Shown: positions 26,765-33,827 of the stretch, piece by piece
Layout: every line of letters begins with the position of its first letter
How positions within the stretch are numbered: the stretch's first letter is position 1
Assembly: GCF_024639685.1 (NCBI RefSeq)
Contig: NZ_JAHEHX010000021.1
Span: 186,001-250,000 of the forward strand
From: Polaribacter sp.
Lineage (GTDB): Bacteria > Bacteroidota > Bacteroidia > Flavobacteriales > Flavobacteriaceae
Direction of reading: 5' to 3'
Length of the DNA: 64,000 bases
Made by a program: the position numbers and the translations under genes
Notes under the pieces: model-generated
The model's database searches: none
Told to the model about the DNA's origin: nothing
What the model saw: the letters and a program-made list of their open reading frames with translations, nothing else

Positions 26765-28156
26765 TTAAATTTTTTCTGCTAGAATTAATGCTTTTTTCAA
26801 AGCTGCTAATTTGTTATTTACTTCTTGTAATTCTTTTTCTTCATCTGAGTGAATTACGATTCCTGCTCCTGCTTGATAATACAAGGTTTTATTTTTGCTC
26901 ACAAAAGAACGTATTGCAATAGCTAAATTTACAGAACCATCTAAACCAATAATACCAACTGCACCACCATAAAATCCTCTAGATTGATTTTCATAATCAT
27001 CAATTAATTGCATTGCCTTATATTTTGGTGCACCACTTAAAGTACCTGCAGGAAATGTATCCCCTACAATTTCTATTGGATTTCCTTTTAATTGTCCTGT
27101 TACAGTCGAAACTAAATGAATAACATGACTAAAATATTGTACTTCTTTAAAGACCTCTACTTCTACTTGATCTGAATGTTTACTTAAATCGTTTCTAGCT
27201 AAATCTACTAACATTACATGCTCTGCAGTTTCTTTTTTATCTTCAGAAAGCTTTTTACCTAACTTAATATCTTTAGCCATATCTCCTGTTCTTCTAAAAG
27301 TACCAGCAATAGGATTAATGGTTGCTTTACCTGCCGAAATTTTTATCTGTGCTTCAGGAGAAGAACCCATTAATTTAAAAGAACCGTAATCAAAATAAAA
27401 TAAATAAGGTGATGGATTAATAGAACGTAAAGCTCTATATACATTAAACTCATCTCCTTTAAATTTTTGTTGAAATTGGCGTGATAAAACCAGTTGAAAA
27501 ACATCTCCTCTTTTACAATGTGCTTTTGCTTTCTTTACATACTCAATAAACTCTTCACCTTTAACATTAGAAGTTTCTTCACCTACAATATCAAATTGAT
27601 GTGTATTAAAAGCCTGCGCATTTATTAAAGTTTGAATTTCTTTAATTCTAGACTCAGTACCCTCTTCAATATTTTCTATCAAAGTCATTTCGTCATTAAA
27701 ATGATTGATAGCAATAATAAATCTATAAAAACTGTATTGTAATAAAGGTATGGCTGAAGGAGCCTCATCAACTGTTAACTCTATATTCTCAAAATACTGC
27801 ACAGAATCATAAGTAGTATACCCATACAAACCATTAAATGATTTTAATTCTGGAGGACAATCTAACTCAATTCTTTTACTATACTCTTCAAATATCTGGT
27901 TAAAATTTCTACCAATTTGTTTATTTTCTATTTCTACATTTTTATGAGAAATACTTAAATGATGATTTTCTGCTTTTATAGAAACTACTGGCTCAATAGC
28001 TATAAACGTAAAACTTTCGTCTTTACTATGATAATCTGAGCTTTCTAATAAAAGAGTATTTGCATACTTATCTCTAAAACGCAAATACAAACCAACAGGT
28101 GTTATTGTATCAGCAATTTTGGTTTTATGTATTGTTTTAAATTTTATATTCTTCAT
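26765..28156 (-). CDS. trpE: Anthranilate synthase component I
   Basis: TrpE converts chorismate to anthranilate. The chorismate-binding domain includes RGDVFQLVLSRQFQQKF, FKLMGSSPEAQIKI, INPIAGTFRRTG, ARNDLSKHSDQVEV, FPAGTLSGAPKYKAM and YQAGAGIVIHSDEEKE. I start at the ATG at 28156 (MKNIKFKTIHKTKIADTITP). The 24 upstream in-frame codons run through the leader terminator hairpin and are unlikely to be translated. First structural gene of the trp operon, preceded by trpL and an attenuator. Confidence 0.95.
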   Translation of the reverse strand: MKNIKFKTIHKTKIADTITPVGLYLRFRDKYANTLLLESSDYHSKDESFTFIAIEPVVSIKAENHHLSISHKNVEIENKQIGRNFNQIFEEYSKRIELDCPPELKSFNGLYGYTTYDSVQYFENIELTVDEAPSAIPLLQYSFYRFIIAINHFNDEMTLIENIEEGTESRIKEIQTLINAQAFNTHQFDIVGEETSNVKGEEFIEYVKKAKAHCKRGDVFQLVLSRQFQQKFKGDEFNVYRALRSINPSPYLFYFDYGSFKLMGSSPEAQIKISAGKATINPIAGTFRRTGDMAKDIKLGKKLSEDKKETAEHVMLVDLARNDLSKHSDQVEVEVFKEVQYFSHVIHLVSTVTGQLKGNPIEIVGDTFPAGTLSGAPKYKAMQLIDDYENQSRGFYGGAVGIIGLDGSVNLAIAIRSFVSKNKTLYYQAGAGIVIHSDEEKELQEVNNKLAALKKALILAEKI

Positions 28157-28317: not shown

Positions 28318-28664
28318 ATTATATGTGAAGTATTTTAAAGATTTAAGTAATTTAAAGCAGAACTTATTTTTTTAAGCAGATAGCTTACATTTGTAAACTA
28401 AAATCAATAATTATTAGCATAATTATAACTGATGTGTAAAATATTGTTTACAATTAATACATTAATTTGTTTATTTATAAACCCAAACTTATGTTGGATT
28501 TGAATTTAATGAATTAAAAGAATGCGCTATTAATTTAACTATAAATTTTTAGTGCATTTTCTTAAAATTTTTATCAGATTGATATTTAAATTTAAGATTA
28601 TTATCAAAACAATAAGTCTCAGATAAAATTAATAAAAATCAATTTTTATAGCATTCATTCTACA

Positions 28665-28672
28665 TATATTTG
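28665..28672 (+). promoter_or_regulatory. -7 promoter box for the Asn leader / gat operon
   Basis: TATATTTG fits TAnnTTTG and would start transcription around 28678-28680, about 12-14 bases before the leader-peptide ATG. No TTG is present at the -33 position, so the promoter may be weak or assisted by an activator. Confidence 0.6.
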
Positions 28673-28691
28673 CGAGTATAGTATACTAATT

Positions 28692-28739
28692 ATGAGAAAT
28701 ATTAATAACAATCTTAATTTCATTAATCCTAATCTATAA
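28692..28739 (+). CDS. Asparagine-rich leader peptide of the gatCA-gatB::aspS operon
   Basis: This 15-residue ORF reads MRNINNNLNFINPNL then TAA, with Asn at positions 3, 5, 6, 7, 9, 12 and 14. It is the first ORF after the -7 box, ends 4 bases before the first antiterminator arm and is followed by a terminator with a U-tract. It parallels trpL in size and layout. Codons 5-8 (28704-28715) also form segment 1 of the RNA switch. I infer that it senses charged tRNA-Asn by ribosome stalling. No Asn leader for tRNA-amidation genes is known to me. Confidence 0.8.
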   Translation: MRNINNNLNFINPNL

Positions 28740-28801
28740 GGAAGGAAGGTTGTTGTTTATTCAAATATTAATCTAACCTTCCTAGTTGGGAGGTTTTTTT
28801 T
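28704..28801 (+). promoter_or_regulatory. Four-segment transcription attenuator for the gat/aspS operon
   Basis: Segment 1 (28704-28715, inside the leader ORF) pairs with segment 2 (28746-28757) over 12 bp including two G.U pairs. Segment 2 shifted (AGGAAGGTT, 28743-28751) pairs perfectly over 9 bp with segment 3 (AACCTTCCT, 28775-28783). Segment 3 (28775-28782) pairs with segment 4 (GGGAGGTT, 28788-28795; one G.U, 5-base loop), followed by T to 28801: an intrinsic terminator. The 1:2 and 3:4 helices give termination and 2:3 gives read-through. The terminator lies 20 bases before the GatC-like start. Confidence 0.82.
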
Positions 28802-28821
28802 ATGTATTAAATTATAAGAAA

Positions 28822-29091
28822 ATGAGTAAAATTATGACAGTAGACATTTTGTCTAGCATTAAAGGAGCCCAGCCATCTGAAGCTGTAAATAAATTGTTTG
28901 ATGTAATTAAAAATGCAAATCTGAATAATTCAAATGCCTTTAATAAAAATCATAACAATGCTGTTTCTCTAAATGATTTAAGAGAAGATGTAGTGATAAA
29001 TAGCTCTGCTATAGAGAAAGAAATAATCATAGAGAATTTTCCAAAAGAGAAGAATGATTATTTAGTAGTTTCTAAAGTAATTGAGGAATAA
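28822..29091 (+). CDS. gatC: GatC-like subunit with divergent, Asn-rich N-terminal half
   Basis: This 89-residue protein starts at ATG 28822 (MSKIMTVDILSSIKG); a TTG 12 codons earlier lies in the terminator and is rejected. The C-terminal half, LNDLREDVVINSSAIEKEII then NFPKEKNDYLVVSKVIEE, follows the GatC pattern of LRED-V near the middle, a N-x-P segment and a VPKVLE-like end. The N-terminal half lacks the usual GatC helix motif and has 9 Asn among residues 31-46. GatC clamps GatA to GatB in tRNA-dependent amidotransferase. Position directly before gatA (3-base gap) supports the call. Confidence 0.72.
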   Translation: MSKIMTVDILSSIKGAQPSEAVNKLFDVIKNANLNNSNAFNKNHNNAVSLNDLREDVVINSSAIEKEIIIENFPKEKNDYLVVSKVIEE

Positions 29092-29094
29092 ATA

Positions 29095-30495
29095 ATGGAA
29101 TCGCAAATACACAAAATCCATCAGCAATTGATGGCCAAAGAATTTACTTGCACAAAACTGGTACAAGACAGATTAGATTTACTAAAATCTAATACTTATA
29201 ATTCTGTAAATTCTTTGTTAGATAAAATAGCCTTAGAATTGGCTACAAAAGTTGATGCTAAAATTGAAAGCGGACAGGAAATCGGACTTTTAGAAGGAAT
29301 TCCTTTCGGAATTAAAGATGTATATATGGTTCAAGGAACTTACACTACTGCAAGTTCTGATTTACTAAAAAATTACAAATCTGCTTATACAGCTACAGCA
29401 ATTCAGAAATTATTAGATGCAGGAGCAATTCCTTTAGTAAAAGAAAATTGCGATTCTTTTGGTCATGGTTCATCTTCTGAAAACACCATTTTTGGTGCTG
29501 TAAAAAATGCCATTAATTCTGATTTAGTTTCAGGAGGTTCAAGTGGTGGTTCTGCTGTAAATGTTGCCAAAGATTACACTGTTTTTTCTATTGGTGGAGA
29601 TACAGGAGGTTCAATTCGTCAGCCAGCTGGTTACAATAAAGTATTCGGATTAAAACCAACTTATGGTAAAATTTCTCGTTTTGGGTTGATGGCTTACGCA
29701 TCTTCTACAGATTGTGTTGGGCCAATTGCAAAATCGATAGAAGATATTAGAATTGTTTTAAATGTAATGAGTGGTAAAGACATAAAAGATCTAACTACTT
29801 ATCAATCAGAAAAAATATCCGAAGAAAGTATTTTAAATATTGATGAAATAAAAACCATTGGTTATTTTAAAAACTTTATAGAAAGTGATGCTATTGATGC
29901 CCAAGTTAAAGCTGATTTTTTAGCATCCATAGAAAAAATAAAAGGAAAAGGAATTGAAGTAAAAGAATTAGACTTTTTTGAATCTGATACTTTAGTTTCT
30001 ACATACTACACTTTAGCAATGGCTGAAACTGCTTCTAATTTATCGAGATTAGATGGTACAAATTACGGAGCAAGAATTGAAGGTGATAATTTAAAGAATA
30101 CCTATTCTATAACTCGTTCAGAAAATTTTTCTGATGAATCTAAAAGAAGAATTGTGGGTGGTAATCAAGTTTTATCTCAAGGTTTTTCTGATGAAATTTA
30201 CTTAAAAGGCTTAAACTTAAGAGATCAGATTTCTAATAATTTCGAAAAAGATTTTAAGGAAGTTGATATTATTTTATCGCCAGTTACACCAAATACACCT
30301 CCAAAAATTGGAGAAAGCCTAAACAATCCTTTAGCAATGTATTTATCTGATGCTTATACAGTTGGATTTAGTTTAGGTAAATTACCAACATTAACAATAC
30401 CAAAAGGAACTGGAACAGGTTTGCAAATTTCTGCAGCAAAAAATAATGATGCTTTGGTTTTACAATTCGCTAATTTCTTAAATGATTTGATATAA
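29095..30495 (+). CDS. gatA: Aspartyl/glutamyl-tRNA amidotransferase subunit A
   Basis: The 466-residue amidase-signature enzyme has the catalytic Lys in FGIKDVYMVQGTYT, the cis-Ser in SGGSSGGSAVNVA and the nucleophile Ser in GGDTGGSIRQPAGY, followed by FGLKPTYGKISRFGL. GatA frees ammonia from glutamine (or asparagine) and passes it to GatB. It shares one base (TAATG) with the gatB::aspS fusion and follows the GatC-like gene by 3 bases, completing the GatCAB set. Confidence 0.94.
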   Translation: MESQIHKIHQQLMAKEFTCTKLVQDRLDLLKSNTYNSVNSLLDKIALELATKVDAKIESGQEIGLLEGIPFGIKDVYMVQGTYTTASSDLLKNYKSAYTATAIQKLLDAGAIPLVKENCDSFGHGSSSENTIFGAVKNAINSDLVSGGSSGGSAVNVAKDYTVFSIGGDTGGSIRQPAGYNKVFGLKPTYGKISRFGLMAYASSTDCVGPIAKSIEDIRIVLNVMSGKDIKDLTTYQSEKISEESILNIDEIKTIGYFKNFIESDAIDAQVKADFLASIEKIKGKGIEVKELDFFESDTLVSTYYTLAMAETASNLSRLDGTNYGARIEGDNLKNTYSITRSENFSDESKRRIVGGNQVLSQGFSDEIYLKGLNLRDQISNNFEKDFKEVDIILSPVTPNTPPKIGESLNNPLAMYLSDAYTVGFSLGKLPTLTIPKGTGTGLQISAAKNNDALVLQFANFLNDLI

Positions 30496-33400
30496 TGGAG
30501 CTAGAGAAATTAAATGATTTATTAAAAAAACACGATTTAGAACTTGTAATTGGTTTAGAAACGCACGTTCGTTTAAACACAAAAACCAAGTTATTTTGTT
30601 CTTGTGCAAATACAGAATCTACACATCCTAATACCAATATATGTTCAGTTTGTACTGGTCAAATGGGAGTTTTACCATCAATAAATGCAGCAGCAATTAC
30701 CAAAGCCATTTACTTCGGTAAATCAGTTCGTTCAACCTTTTCAAACGAGATTATCTCGTGGGATCGTAAACATTATGAATATCCAGATAATCCTAAAAAT
30801 ATACAGATTACACAGTTTCATAATCCTGTAATTCCTGATGGACAAGTTTCTTGTTTCAGAAATGATGGATCTCAATTTACAGTGAACTTAACGCAAGTTC
30901 ATATTGAGGAAGATGCAGCAAAATTAATGCACGAAAAGAAAGTTTCTTTAGTAGATTTTAACAAAGCTGGTGTACCTTTAATTGAGATTGTAACTGAACC
31001 TTGTATCAGACATATAGAGGATGCTTCAACTTATGCTCAATACATCCAAAGGATTGTTCAGAATTTAAAAATATCCGAAGCAAATTTGGAGAAAGGTGAA
31101 TTTAAATCTGATGTTTCTGTATCACTTAGAAAAAAACATAGTTACAATTTAAATCCACGCACAGAAATCAAAAACTTGAACTCTTTTAAGTTTATGATTG
31201 AGGCTTTAAAAGAAGAAGTTGAAAAGCAATTAAACTATTACATAGAACATAAAGAATTTAGACCAGACCAAACTACAGTATTGTTTGATGCAGATTTAAA
31301 GCAAACCAAAACAATGCGTAAAAAGGAGTTTGAAGCAGATTACAGATTTATTTCTGAACCAGATTTGCCTTTTGTAAATATTAAAAATGTTGTAGAAAGT
31401 ATAGATGTTGATATTAGTTCTTTGCCTTTTGCAGTTGAATCTATTTTGATAAAAGGTGGTGTTTTACCACAAGATGCTAAGTTTTTTACTGCGGATTCTT
31501 TGCGTTCTGAAACCTTTATTGCTATAAACAATGTAATTAAAGATTCGTCTTTTGTTGCTAAAACTTTAGTAAATAATATTGGTGCAGATGAGTACGCAAA
31601 TATTCATAATGTACATCAGCTAATTGAAATTTTCCAATTATTTAAAGCAGATAAAATTACGTCTGTTTTAGTTCAAAACGGAATTACAAGATATTTAAAA
31701 GACAGAACTTTCGATTACAATAAGTACTTTGAAGAAAATACAATTTCTGAAGATAAAATTAAAGGTGCTGTTCAACAACTAATTAATGAAAACGAAGCGA
31801 TTGCCAACGACATTAAAAATGGAAATCAAGGTAAAGCCGGAATTTTAGTTGGTAAAGTCATCAAAATTATTGGTAAAGGAGCTTCAGGAAAAGTGATTCG
31901 TGAAGAGATTCTTAACGCTGTTAGCGGAAATTCAGCCCTTAGCAATTCGCCTTTAGCTATTAGCGAAAAACCAAGGGCTAAAAACCAACAGCCTACTGCT
32001 AAAAAAGATGATGAGCTGCAACAAACTCCAATTATAATAAAAGAAAATTACAGAACCCATAAAATATCAGAATTATCTGATGAATCAATTTATAAAGAAG
32101 TAACATTATCTGGTTGGGTTGCTAGTGTTAGAGATCATGGAGAATTAATTTTTATCGATTTACGTGATTCTTGTTATCAAGTTTTTCAGGTTCGTTTAAG
32201 TAGAGAAACTTTCCCAAATTTAGATGAATTGGTAAAATTAAAACCAGAAACTGTAATTATGGTTACTGGTGTTGTTGTTCAAAGAAGAGAAGATGATTAT
32301 AATGCAGGTATAAGAACTGGTAAAATAGAACTTGAAACATCTGCATTAGAAATTTTAAACTTATCTAAAACTTTGCCTTTTGAAATTAAAAGAGCAATGA
32401 AAACCAATGAAAACGTTCGTTTTCAATACAAGTTTTTAGATCATAGAAATGATGAAGTTCGCAAGGCAATTGTAAACAGACATAAAGTAATTAAATTACT
32501 TCGTGATATTTTAGATGATGAAGAATTCCTAGAAATAGAAACCCCGATTTTAACTGCTGGTACAGATGAAGGTGCAAGAGAATTTATTGTACCAACAAGA
32601 AAACAAGCTGGTTCTTTTTATACATTACCACAAGCACCTCAACAATTTAAGCAAATGTTGATGGTTGGGGGATTTGAGAAATACTTTCAAATTGCACGTT
32701 GTTTTAGAGATGAAGATTCTAGAGGTGATAGACAACCAGAATTTACACAACTAGATATAGAAATGGCATACGCAAGTATGCAGCAAATTATAGATTTAAA
32801 CACGAGAATGTTTAATGAAATAGTGAAAAAAATCTATGGTAAAAAATGGATTTTACGTCCGTTTGAAGTAATTACTTACAAAGAAGCTATGTATAAATAT
32901 GGCTGTGATAGACCAGATTTACGTTATGGTTTAGAAATGCAAGACATTACAGAAATTGTAAAAGACACCTCTTTTCAGGTGTTTAGCAAGCCTATTGATG
33001 AAGGCGGAATTGTAAAATGTATTAAAGTTTCTGCGGAAGAACAAGGAAACAAACGTATGTCTAAAGGTCAAATAGAAAACCTGACTGCAATTGCGCAACA
33101 AAATGGTTTAGGTGGTCTCGCTTATATTATTGTAAATGAAAACGATTTACAATCTCCAATTATTAAGTTTTTGGGAGAAGAAATTGCTGCAAATATCATA
33201 AAAGTTACAGATACTAAAATAGGTGATATTGTCTTTTTCTCTGCTGCTGATTACGCAACTGCAAACAAAGCTTTAGATGCTGTACGTCAAGAAATGGGTC
33301 GAATTTTAAAGTTGATAAATCCGAAGGAATTAAGACCTGCTTGGGTTGTAGATTTCCCAATGTTCGAAAAAACGGATGAAGGCAGATGGACGTTCACACA

Positions 33401-33827
33401 CAATCCATTTTCAATGCCAGCTGTTTATGATTTAGAGAAACATATGAATGGTGAAGGTGAAGAAATTGGAACAATCATAGCCCAACAATATGACTTAATT
33501 TTAAACGGTTATGAAATTGGTGGTGGTTCTGTGCGTGCACACAAAGCAGAAATTTTAGAAGCAACCTACAAAAATATGGGTTACAATAAAGAGGAAATGC
33601 TAAAAAGTGTTGGCACCATGTATAAAGCGTTTCAATATGGAGCACCTCCTCATGGAGGAATTGCTTGGGGAGTAGATAGGTTAATGATGATTTTAGAGAA
33701 AAAAACTTCAATTAGAGAAGTTATGGCTTTTCCTAAAACAGGAACATCTGAAGACTTATTATTTAATGCGCCTTCAATTTTATCAGATAAAAAAGTAGAA
33801 GAAATGAATGTGAAGATCATAAAATAA
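30495..33827 (+). CDS. gatB-aspS: GatB :: aspartyl-tRNA synthetase fusion protein
   Basis: The 1110-residue protein joins two enzymes. Residues 1-475 are GatB: IGLETHVRLNTKTKLFCSC, the second Cys pair CSVCTGQMGVLPS, NFNKAGVPLIEIV-type core and a YqeY-like tail ending GKVIREEILNAV. A low-complexity linker (about 477-515) follows. Residues about 520-1110 are a bacterial AspRS: GWVASVRDHGELIFIDLRD, motif 2 FRDEDSRGDRQPEFTQLD, GAD-like insert and motif 3 GGIAWGVDRLMM. His548 in RDHG matches the His found in non-discriminating AspRS of Pseudomonas type. The protein would charge Asp on tRNA-Asn and amidate it in one complex. Last gene of the operon. Confidence 0.93.
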   Translation: MELEKLNDLLKKHDLELVIGLETHVRLNTKTKLFCSCANTESTHPNTNICSVCTGQMGVLPSINAAAITKAIYFGKSVRSTFSNEIISWDRKHYEYPDNPKNIQITQFHNPVIPDGQVSCFRNDGSQFTVNLTQVHIEEDAAKLMHEKKVSLVDFNKAGVPLIEIVTEPCIRHIEDASTYAQYIQRIVQNLKISEANLEKGEFKSDVSVSLRKKHSYNLNPRTEIKNLNSFKFMIEALKEEVEKQLNYYIEHKEFRPDQTTVLFDADLKQTKTMRKKEFEADYRFISEPDLPFVNIKNVVESIDVDISSLPFAVESILIKGGVLPQDAKFFTADSLRSETFIAINNVIKDSSFVAKTLVNNIGADEYANIHNVHQLIEIFQLFKADKITSVLVQNGITRYLKDRTFDYNKYFEENTISEDKIKGAVQQLINENEAIANDIKNGNQGKAGILVGKVIKIIGKGASGKVIREEILNAVSGNSALSNSPLAISEKPRAKNQQPTAKKDDELQQTPIIIKENYRTHKISELSDESIYKEVTLSGWVASVRDHGELIFIDLRDSCYQVFQVRLSRETFPNLDELVKLKPETVIMVTGVVVQRREDDYNAGIRTGKIELETSALEILNLSKTLPFEIKRAMKTNENVRFQYKFLDHRNDEVRKAIVNRHKVIKLLRDILDDEEFLEIETPILTAGTDEGAREFIVPTRKQAGSFYTLPQAPQQFKQMLMVGGFEKYFQIARCFRDEDSRGDRQPEFTQLDIEMAYASMQQIIDLNTRMFNEIVKKIYGKKWILRPFEVITYKEAMYKYGCDRPDLRYGLEMQDITEIVKDTSFQVFSKPIDEGGIVKCIKVSAEEQGNKRMSKGQIENLTAIAQQNGLGGLAYIIVNENDLQSPIIKFLGEEIAANIIKVTDTKIGDIVFFSAADYATANKALDAVRQEMGRILKLINPKELRPAWVVDFPMFEKTDEGRWTFTHNPFSMPAVYDLEKHMNGEGEEIGTIIAQQYDLILNGYEIGGGSVRAHKAEILEATYKNMGYNKEEMLKSVGTMYKAFQYGAPPHGGIAWGVDRLMMILEKKTSIREVMAFPKTGTSEDLLFNAPSILSDKKVEEMNVKIIK
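31934..31979. repeat. Palindromic insert coding for the GatB-AspRS linker
   Basis: AGCCCTT (31934-31940) and AAGGGCT (31973-31979) are inverted arms around a segment with TTCGC...GCGAA and several TTAGC/GCTAA units. The element is read through in frame and encodes most of the low-complexity linker between the two enzymes, so it looks like a palindromic repeat captured at the fusion joint. Confidence 0.5.

Follow-up and report, generated by a model that had tools for sequence, protein, structure and literature searches.

What would a bacterium gain from keeping genes for making asparagine on its tRNA when it also encodes an asparaginyl-tRNA synthetase (AsnRS), and why would an Asn-rich short reading frame stand in front of them? 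The question is raised by a locus of Polaribacter sp. (Flavobacteriaceae), which lies in the 64,000-nucleotide (nt) stretch analysed here, positions 186,001 to 250,000 of contig NZ_JAHEHX010000021.1 (assembly GCF_024639685.1); this whole stretch is the window, and all coordinates are counted from its first letter. At 28692..28801 an element of about 110 nt precedes a gatC-like gene, gatA and gatB::aspS, the last encoding GatB fused to an aspartyl-tRNA synthetase (AspRS). As read from its sequence, the element is very probably a ribosome-mediated transcription attenuator, which would admit polymerase to gatC-gatA-gatB::aspS only when charged tRNA-Asn is scarce. The leader thereby likely controls tRNA-dependent asparagine synthesis through Asn-tRNA charging. 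The parts of the element and its predicted promoter are as follows.

28665..28672, forward strand: predicted promoter −7 box TATATTTG, a motif kept upstream of the leaders (Bacteroidota consensus TAnnTTTG, from the accessible text of PMC9723704)
28692..28739, forward strand: leader open reading frame (ORF) MRNINNNLNFINPNL, 15 codons and stop TAA, with 62 distinct copies of 6–10 Asn each
28704..28715, forward strand: segment 1, over the Asn codons, forming a 12-bp duplex with segment 2, a pairing less constrained in relatives
28727..28742, forward strand: small hairpin at the stop codon, UCCU:AGGA in the window
28743..28757, forward strand: segment 2, 5′ arm of the antiterminator, complementary to segment 3
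28775..28783, forward strand: segment 3, common to antiterminator and terminator by pairing and terminator scan
28788..28801, forward strand: segment 4 and U-tract, 3′ arm of the intrinsic terminator by terminator scan and 3:4 pairing

The initial annotation had described a 15-residue ORF with seven Asn and a set of overlapping duplexes. The ORF is borne out by the sequence, with Asn in 7 of its 15 codons, and recomputing the duplexes returns the claimed geometry: 28704-28715 pairs with 28746-28757 (1:2; 12 bp with two G.U, −10.2 kcal/mol), 28743-28751 with 28775-28783 (2:3; 9 perfect bp, −12.1 kcal/mol) and 28775-28782 with 28788-28795 (3:4; 8 bp, −10.0 kcal/mol), followed by a T-tract. A terminator scan returns 28775-28795. 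Among 2,000 dinucleotide shuffles of the region, none contains a short ORF with at least seven Asn and one offers segment 3 a partner as good as the real one; a 1:2 duplex that equals the native one turns up in 14, a moderate level of chance. The fold as a whole has a z score of −2.86, and 2 of 200 shuffles are as stable.

The main support for the element being real is its recurrence. We compared 108 upstream regions, window included, the relatives being the best 80 named loci out of 576 relatives, the nearest of the named ones Polaribacter, and 29 further loci from a genus search, with L062 and L080 lacking gatC. Leader copies were picked by an 18-nt core covering the C-terminal codons, with at most 4 mismatches, together with a terminator core, so that conservation of just those core letters is partly due to selection; one locus, L030, has a chance core match and no terminator. 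A matching ORF and terminator are present in 73 of the 108 regions, and merging identical leaders leaves 62 distinct copies for alignment. The Asn-rich character of the ORF is conserved across these relatives: Asn accounts for 533 of 933 codons, each leader having 6 to 10, and codons starting with AA have T in third position 439 times, C 94, A 15 and G once, a pyrimidine in 533 of 549. Stops interrupt the other two frames in 61 and 62 of the 62 leaders. The promoter-like pattern TAnn[TC]TTG occurs within 60 nt upstream of all 62, compared with 72 of 1,240 shuffled controls; the box ends 17 nt 5′ of the ATG in 33 of them and 19 nt 5′ in the window.

A covariance model of the element scores the window at 90.4 bits and the next-best site in the same genome at 39.3. 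In 397 genomes of the family it finds 37 carriers at E ≤ 1e-6, window included, which span 27 of 237 genera with a single copy each; named carriers include Polaribacter, Algibacter, Flavivirga, Aestuariibaculum, Mariniflexile and Hyunsoonleella. All 30 model loci that were fetched, of the 37 found, have gatC and gatA directly downstream on the same strand. Across the class, 3 of 395 genomes match, again including the window. A tie between leader and trpE neighbourhood was considered and rejected, the trpE-side copies among 107 loci comprising 12 with and 10 without the leader.

The helices of the element are maintained to different degrees in the 62 copies. The hairpin spanning the stop codon, which reads UCCUA:UAGGA in most relatives, is paired in 99.4% of alignment cells, and in L041, L064 and L107 a single pair has gone from C-G to U-A, which also turns a codon from Pro to Ser; the GatA proteins of these three copies differ. 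We know of no such small stop-codon hairpin in trp or his leaders. The terminator 3:4 is paired in 97.5% of cells, with two pairs changed on both sides, and the antiterminator 2:3 in 97.6%. Taken together, 1:2, 3:4 and the stop-codon hairpin pair in 94.9% of cells, slightly above the 94.1% of shuffles, of which 0 of 500 reach the native value, and sliding the helix partners lowers the paired cells to 28–62%. The use of AAC or AAT at Asn codons strengthens 1:2 pairing in 56 of 62 leaders, by a mean of −0.82 kcal/mol relative to synonymous reshuffles.

The stalling, read-through, folding order and enzyme specificity that we infer would run as follows. Ample Asn-tRNA, supplied by AsnRS acting on imported asparagine or by the operon itself, would let the ribosome reach the stop codon and cover segment 2; the 3:4 helix would then form and end transcription. 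Under a shortage of Asn-tRNA, the ribosome would stall in the Asn cluster over segment 1, leaving segment 2 free to pair with segment 3 ahead of the synthesis of segment 4, and the operon would be read. The second, GatB-fused AspRS would then load Asp onto tRNA-Asn and GatCAB would amidate it. The quantity sensed would be the charging of tRNA-Asn, by AsnRS with imported asparagine or by transamidation.

Folding calculations, in which the edge of the ribosome was assumed to lie 14–15 nt past the A site, bear on this scheme. Before segment 4 is made, the mean probability of 2:3 over the 62 leaders is 0.94 without a ribosome, 0.99 with one stalled at the third Asn codon, 0.98 at the third-last Asn codon and 0.01 at the stop codon, a strong modelled contrast between a stalled ribosome and one at the stop. 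The window RNA at equilibrium has a terminator probability of 0.97 when free, 0.03 when stalled at the third Asn codon and 0.996 at the stop codon; across the set, a stall at the third Asn codon brings this value below 0.5 in only 5 of 62 leaders. The equilibrium measure cannot decide the matter, because the textbook leader of Escherichia coli trp (trpL), run as a control, gives 0.965 in its stalled state and so shows no switching either. As proof of switching, equilibrium folding is thus inadequate.

Several results weigh against an attenuator of this kind. The terminator wins the stalled-state equilibrium in 57 of 62 leaders, and in the window RNA its probability is 0.996 with a ribosome stalled on the last Asn codon. 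In the ribosome-free state, 2:3 also forms ahead of segment 4 synthesis in 60 of 62 leaders; basal termination would therefore require prior formation of 1:2. In the register counted, the window has a 2:3 probability of 0.58 when free, 0.61 at the third Asn codon, 0.016 at the third-last and 0 at the stop codon, and the 0.016 may be due to a doubled GGAAGG. The compensatory changes that the initial annotation proposed to look for are present for two pairs of 3:4 and one pair of 1:2, and are missing from 2:3, which has no two-sided change in the 62 copies and no covariation beyond that of shuffles; this helix is upheld by sequence conservation. The weakly supported 1:2 helix is the least certain part of the element. 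It is paired in 90.3% of cells, 36% of synonymous reshuffles match its native stability, and swapping segment 2 between two classes of leader gave a mixed outcome, weakening the pairing in one class only (−10.2 to −8.6 kcal/mol, and −8.5 to −9.2 kcal/mol in the other). Leaders that precede a prephenate dehydratase-like gene in another family also contain Asn codons. Finally, 35 of the 108 operon copies are leaderless, the covariance model reaching at most 36 bits there (39 loci searched); all the copies with an upstream region of gatC from Flavobacterium (6), Lutibacter (4) and Tamlana (4) are among them, as are several from Polaribacter and Algibacter. One of the Polaribacter, Polaribacter sp. 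Hel1_85 (L005), keeps the operon, and no leader core, segment-2, leader-terminator or TAnnTTTG pattern lies within 1,500 nt upstream of its gatC (3332), possibly a natural deletion of the leader.

Could the same parts serve another kind of control? Equilibrium folding prefers the terminator for most leaders and in most states, as one would see if the element were a constitutive terminator or a plain 5′ hairpin with no effect beyond lowering expression, and the Asn run an accident of AT-rich DNA; the absence of seven-Asn ORFs from the shuffles, the stops in both other frames and the retention of the antiterminator complement in 97.6% of cells make this very improbable. A T-box or a protein-binding attenuator, with the short ORF incidental, has a precedent in the T-box on a transamidation operon of Clostridium acetobutylicum, as described in the accessible text of PMC4052509. 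We hold it to be just as hard to credit for an element of about 110 nt whose frame is kept as Asn codons, which an RNA that binds tRNA or protein would not need. Rfam scans, at gathering score for the window and at E up to 1 for 28640-28840, return no T-box family; the Asn element as a whole has no Rfam match at gathering score, and the top leader-family match of 28640-28840 is Phe_leader, at 19.6 bits of the 55 needed. The leader might, lastly, act on translation more than on transcription, by re-initiation or coupling to gatC, and the short gap between U-tract and gatC start (12–68 nt in 67 of 73 copies) would suit this. That explanation is also improbable, if a little less so, given the conserved terminator with its U-tract and the spacings of 183 and 190 nt in two copies.

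The ribosome-mediated attenuator gains its biological meaning from the genes that follow it, which lie, with their divergent neighbour, as listed.

28822..29091, forward strand: gatC-like gene (PF02686, 20.2 bits, cut-off 23; TIGR00135, 19.8 bits, cut-off 47.1)
29095..30495, forward strand: gatA, predicted Asp-tRNA(Asn) amidotransferase subunit A (PF01425, 366 bits; TIGR00132, 428 bits, cut-off 481)
30495..33827, forward strand: gatB::aspS, GatB domains and then a bacterial-type AspRS with a GAD domain (Pfam; TIGR00133, 338.5 bits; TIGR00459, 643.4 bits)
26765..28156, reverse strand: trpE, divergent neighbour (Pfam)

Both TIGR scores of the gatB::aspS product exceed their cut-offs, and the gatC product is predicted to be a very divergent GatC, perhaps owing to a change of role upon the fusion of AspRS with GatB. 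The best solved match of the fused AspRS part is 4wj3, an aspartate--tRNA(Asp/Asn) ligase. The window's fusion shares with 4wj3 the motif RDHG, which reads RDLG in the enzymes of E. coli (1c0a) and Thermus thermophilus (1efw); we take this His/Leu position to separate non-discriminating from discriminating AspRS. The His is present in the fusions of 76 of 80 named loci (the best 80 of 576), the motif not being found in the other four, and the genome's separate AspRS has Lys at the same position. Fusions of AspRS to transamidosome parts are already known, an AspRS-GatC fusion having its own NCBIfam entry (NF009460), and the difference here is GatB as the partner.

The reading given in the initial annotation holds up, with one amendment on the downstream genes: the operon does not look like the general source of Asn-tRNA. 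The host genome encodes AsnRS (617 bits), the separate AspRS and glutaminyl-tRNA synthetase (GlnRS, 720 bits), with no AsnB above cut-off and no AsnA, so that it combines AsnRS, GlnRS, GatCAB and a second AspRS in the absence of AsnA and AsnB. An operon replacing AsnRS was rejected, AsnRS being found at E ≤ 1e-60 in 142 of 146 genomes of the genus and in all 110 of the good ones; a requirement of GatCAB for Gln-tRNA is unlikely in this host, which has GlnRS. Because AsnRS, GlnRS and a second AspRS are also present, the operon looks, from its gene content, like an asparagine route that stands in for asparagine synthetase.

Exclusion between the operon and asparagine synthetase is observed in the sampled genomes at two levels. 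For the genus, the operon was scored in each genome by its marker alone, a full-length GatA of at least 74% identity, and the housekeeping type of AsnB was judged by eye (match pattern 1-385 plus 437-517, about 555 residues). Of 146 genomes, 67 have the full-length operon GatA, with one further fragment (G004), 70 have housekeeping-type AsnB, one of them (G020) with an in-frame stop, and none has both (Fisher 4.9e-32, uncorrected for kinship). AsnA is confined to two genomes (G117 and G130) with neither operon nor AsnB, and the six with no route (G030, G031, G057, with an AsnB fragment, G069, G074 and G100) come from assemblies that are incomplete or contaminated. For the family, AsnB orthologues were called at E ≤ 1e-180 from a query that is asparagine synthase B by NF006949: 284 of the 397 genomes have one, but not a single one of the 37 leader genomes does, where 26.5 would be expected (P = 5e-23, uncorrected and with the overlap matched by eye). 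One genus, g133, has a genome with the leader and another with AsnB. A tree of AsnRS from 60 of the genus's 146 genomes requires 5 changes among the three asparagine routes, and its starred branches force at least 3 changes for the operon; the exclusion of operon and AsnB is therefore not the product of one event.

The two routes also share a position. In 15 of 16 fetched loci asnB is divergent from trpE (14 by motif, L173 by coordinates; L164 is the exception). The gatCAB operon has the same orientation to trpE in the window, and so it does at 22 of 107 operon loci, where some flanks are short. In Polaribacter genomes lacking the operon, asnB takes up this trpE-divergent slot, a pathway swap in place. 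A similar attenuator ahead of asnB was not found: the R1 covariance model has no match above 33 bits at 16 asnB and 2 asnA loci, terminator-like sites within 330 nt upstream of asnB occur in 2 of the 16, at about −300 where the trp leader ends, and no terminator lies between trp leader and asnB in any of the 16. Some of the AT-rich regions by asnB hold short ORFs with 3–7 Asn, and one locus (L160) has a short ORF with 6 Asn located 286 nt before asnA.

Joining these lines, we lean towards a reading in which at least 27 genera of Flavobacteriaceae make asparagine only on tRNA, by a GatB::AspRS transamidosome that replaces asparagine synthetase (in Polaribacter in the same trpE-side slot), and in which the Asn leader chooses between import and synthesis on tRNA; it would be the first Asn attenuator read by the ribosome, and the first on the transamidation pathway. 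The claim that synthesis is only on tRNA is of modest strength, because the search for AsnA covered the genus and AsnB-like paralogues persist: counting against it, such a paralogue exceeds the cut-off in 20 of the 67 operon genomes of the genus, and one does so in 15 of 46 named operon genomes, a subset of the 80 named loci.

The proposed mechanism is itself known. With attenuators of the trp and his type the element shares a short ORF of regulatory codons, overlapping 1:2, 2:3 and 3:4 helices, an intrinsic terminator and biosynthetic genes downstream; it differs in its Asn codons, in genes predicted to build the amino acid on its tRNA and in the conserved hairpin across the stop codon. The regulated amino acid and the target operon appear to be new: in agreement with the initial annotation, which knew of no Asn leader on a GatCAB/AspRS operon, the top full-text matches among the main texts of freely readable papers report neither an Asn leader nor a GatB::AspRS attenuator, and the accessible parts of PMC2965389 and PMC2864571 do not name the element. 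The nearest known case is the T-box that precedes the transamidation operon in C. acetobutylicum (Saad et al. 2012, 2013, as cited in the accessible text of PMC4052509 and PMC4206432). There too the state of tRNA-Asn controls an operon for tRNA-dependent amidation amid redundant Asn routes; in C. acetobutylicum uncharged tRNA binds the RNA directly, whereas in Polaribacter the sensor is predicted to be the ribosome during translation. A survey from 2008 found no T-box ahead of amidotransferase genes in those of its species without a Gln- or Asn-tRNA ligase (PMC2494555).

Within Flavobacteriaceae, attenuation of amino-acid operons has been proposed for Flavobacterium psychrophilum, where leader-peptide clues precede such operons and 5′ elements lie upstream of pheA and hisG, in a study whose main text, as far as accessible, names neither gatA nor asparagine (PMC9723704); leader-like short ORFs are also mentioned for Bacteroides in the accessible part of PMC7366714. 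The enzyme set has its own parallels. According to the accessible text of PMC4206432, Deinococcus and Thermus have AsnRS, GatCAB and a second AspRS together, the second AspRS being found in 5 of 18 surveyed genera of this type, all Deinococcus-Thermus. In these two genera and in Bdellovibrio, AsnRS, GlnRS and GatCAB coexist without AsnA or AsnB, and why the AsnRS-bearing Bdellovibrio retains the tRNA-dependent route is called not clear in that text. Polaribacter likewise has a second AspRS, which differs in being of the bacterial type (GAD), in its fusion to GatB and in lying behind a predicted Asn attenuator. A route standing in for asparagine synthetase and switched by a leader according to Asn-tRNA charging is the answer that Flavobacteriaceae suggest to the Bdellovibrio question. 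Making the GatB-fused second AspRS inducible would limit the risk from Asp-tRNA(Asn) to times of need, and leaderless operons and sister species carrying asnB are natural controls.

Further leaders lie close by and in a more distant family. On the reverse strand of the window, at 28299-28186 ahead of trpE, stands a Bacteroid-trp leader (RF01692, 56.2 bits) with the peptide MINKQNISWWWNSLDD. It too is a Bacteroidota leader-peptide attenuator and adjoins the Asn element, differing in its Trp codons and its operon, so that one intergenic region holds predicted Trp and Asn attenuators back to back. In another family of the class, two loci (L157 and L159, in G955:C50) have tandem leaders, MNNFFNNYFFNYSRT and MNKTMTYFFFYFFNPN, ahead of a gene that by eye is prephenate dehydratase-like; these carry Asn codons though no asnA is seen in the stretch, which advises caution over codon counts. 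Two others (L158, in G856:C1:345500-359000, and L156) have tandem leaders MKTNFNNNFYFNPKN and MMNFYFNNNFNYATPPGGD with terminators ahead of an asnA that exceeds its cut-off. Neighbouring genes there match prephenate dehydratase, aminotransferase, prephenate dehydrogenase and DAHP synthase, some of them under cut-off, and the tandem leaders possibly place Asn, Phe and Tyr under joint control.
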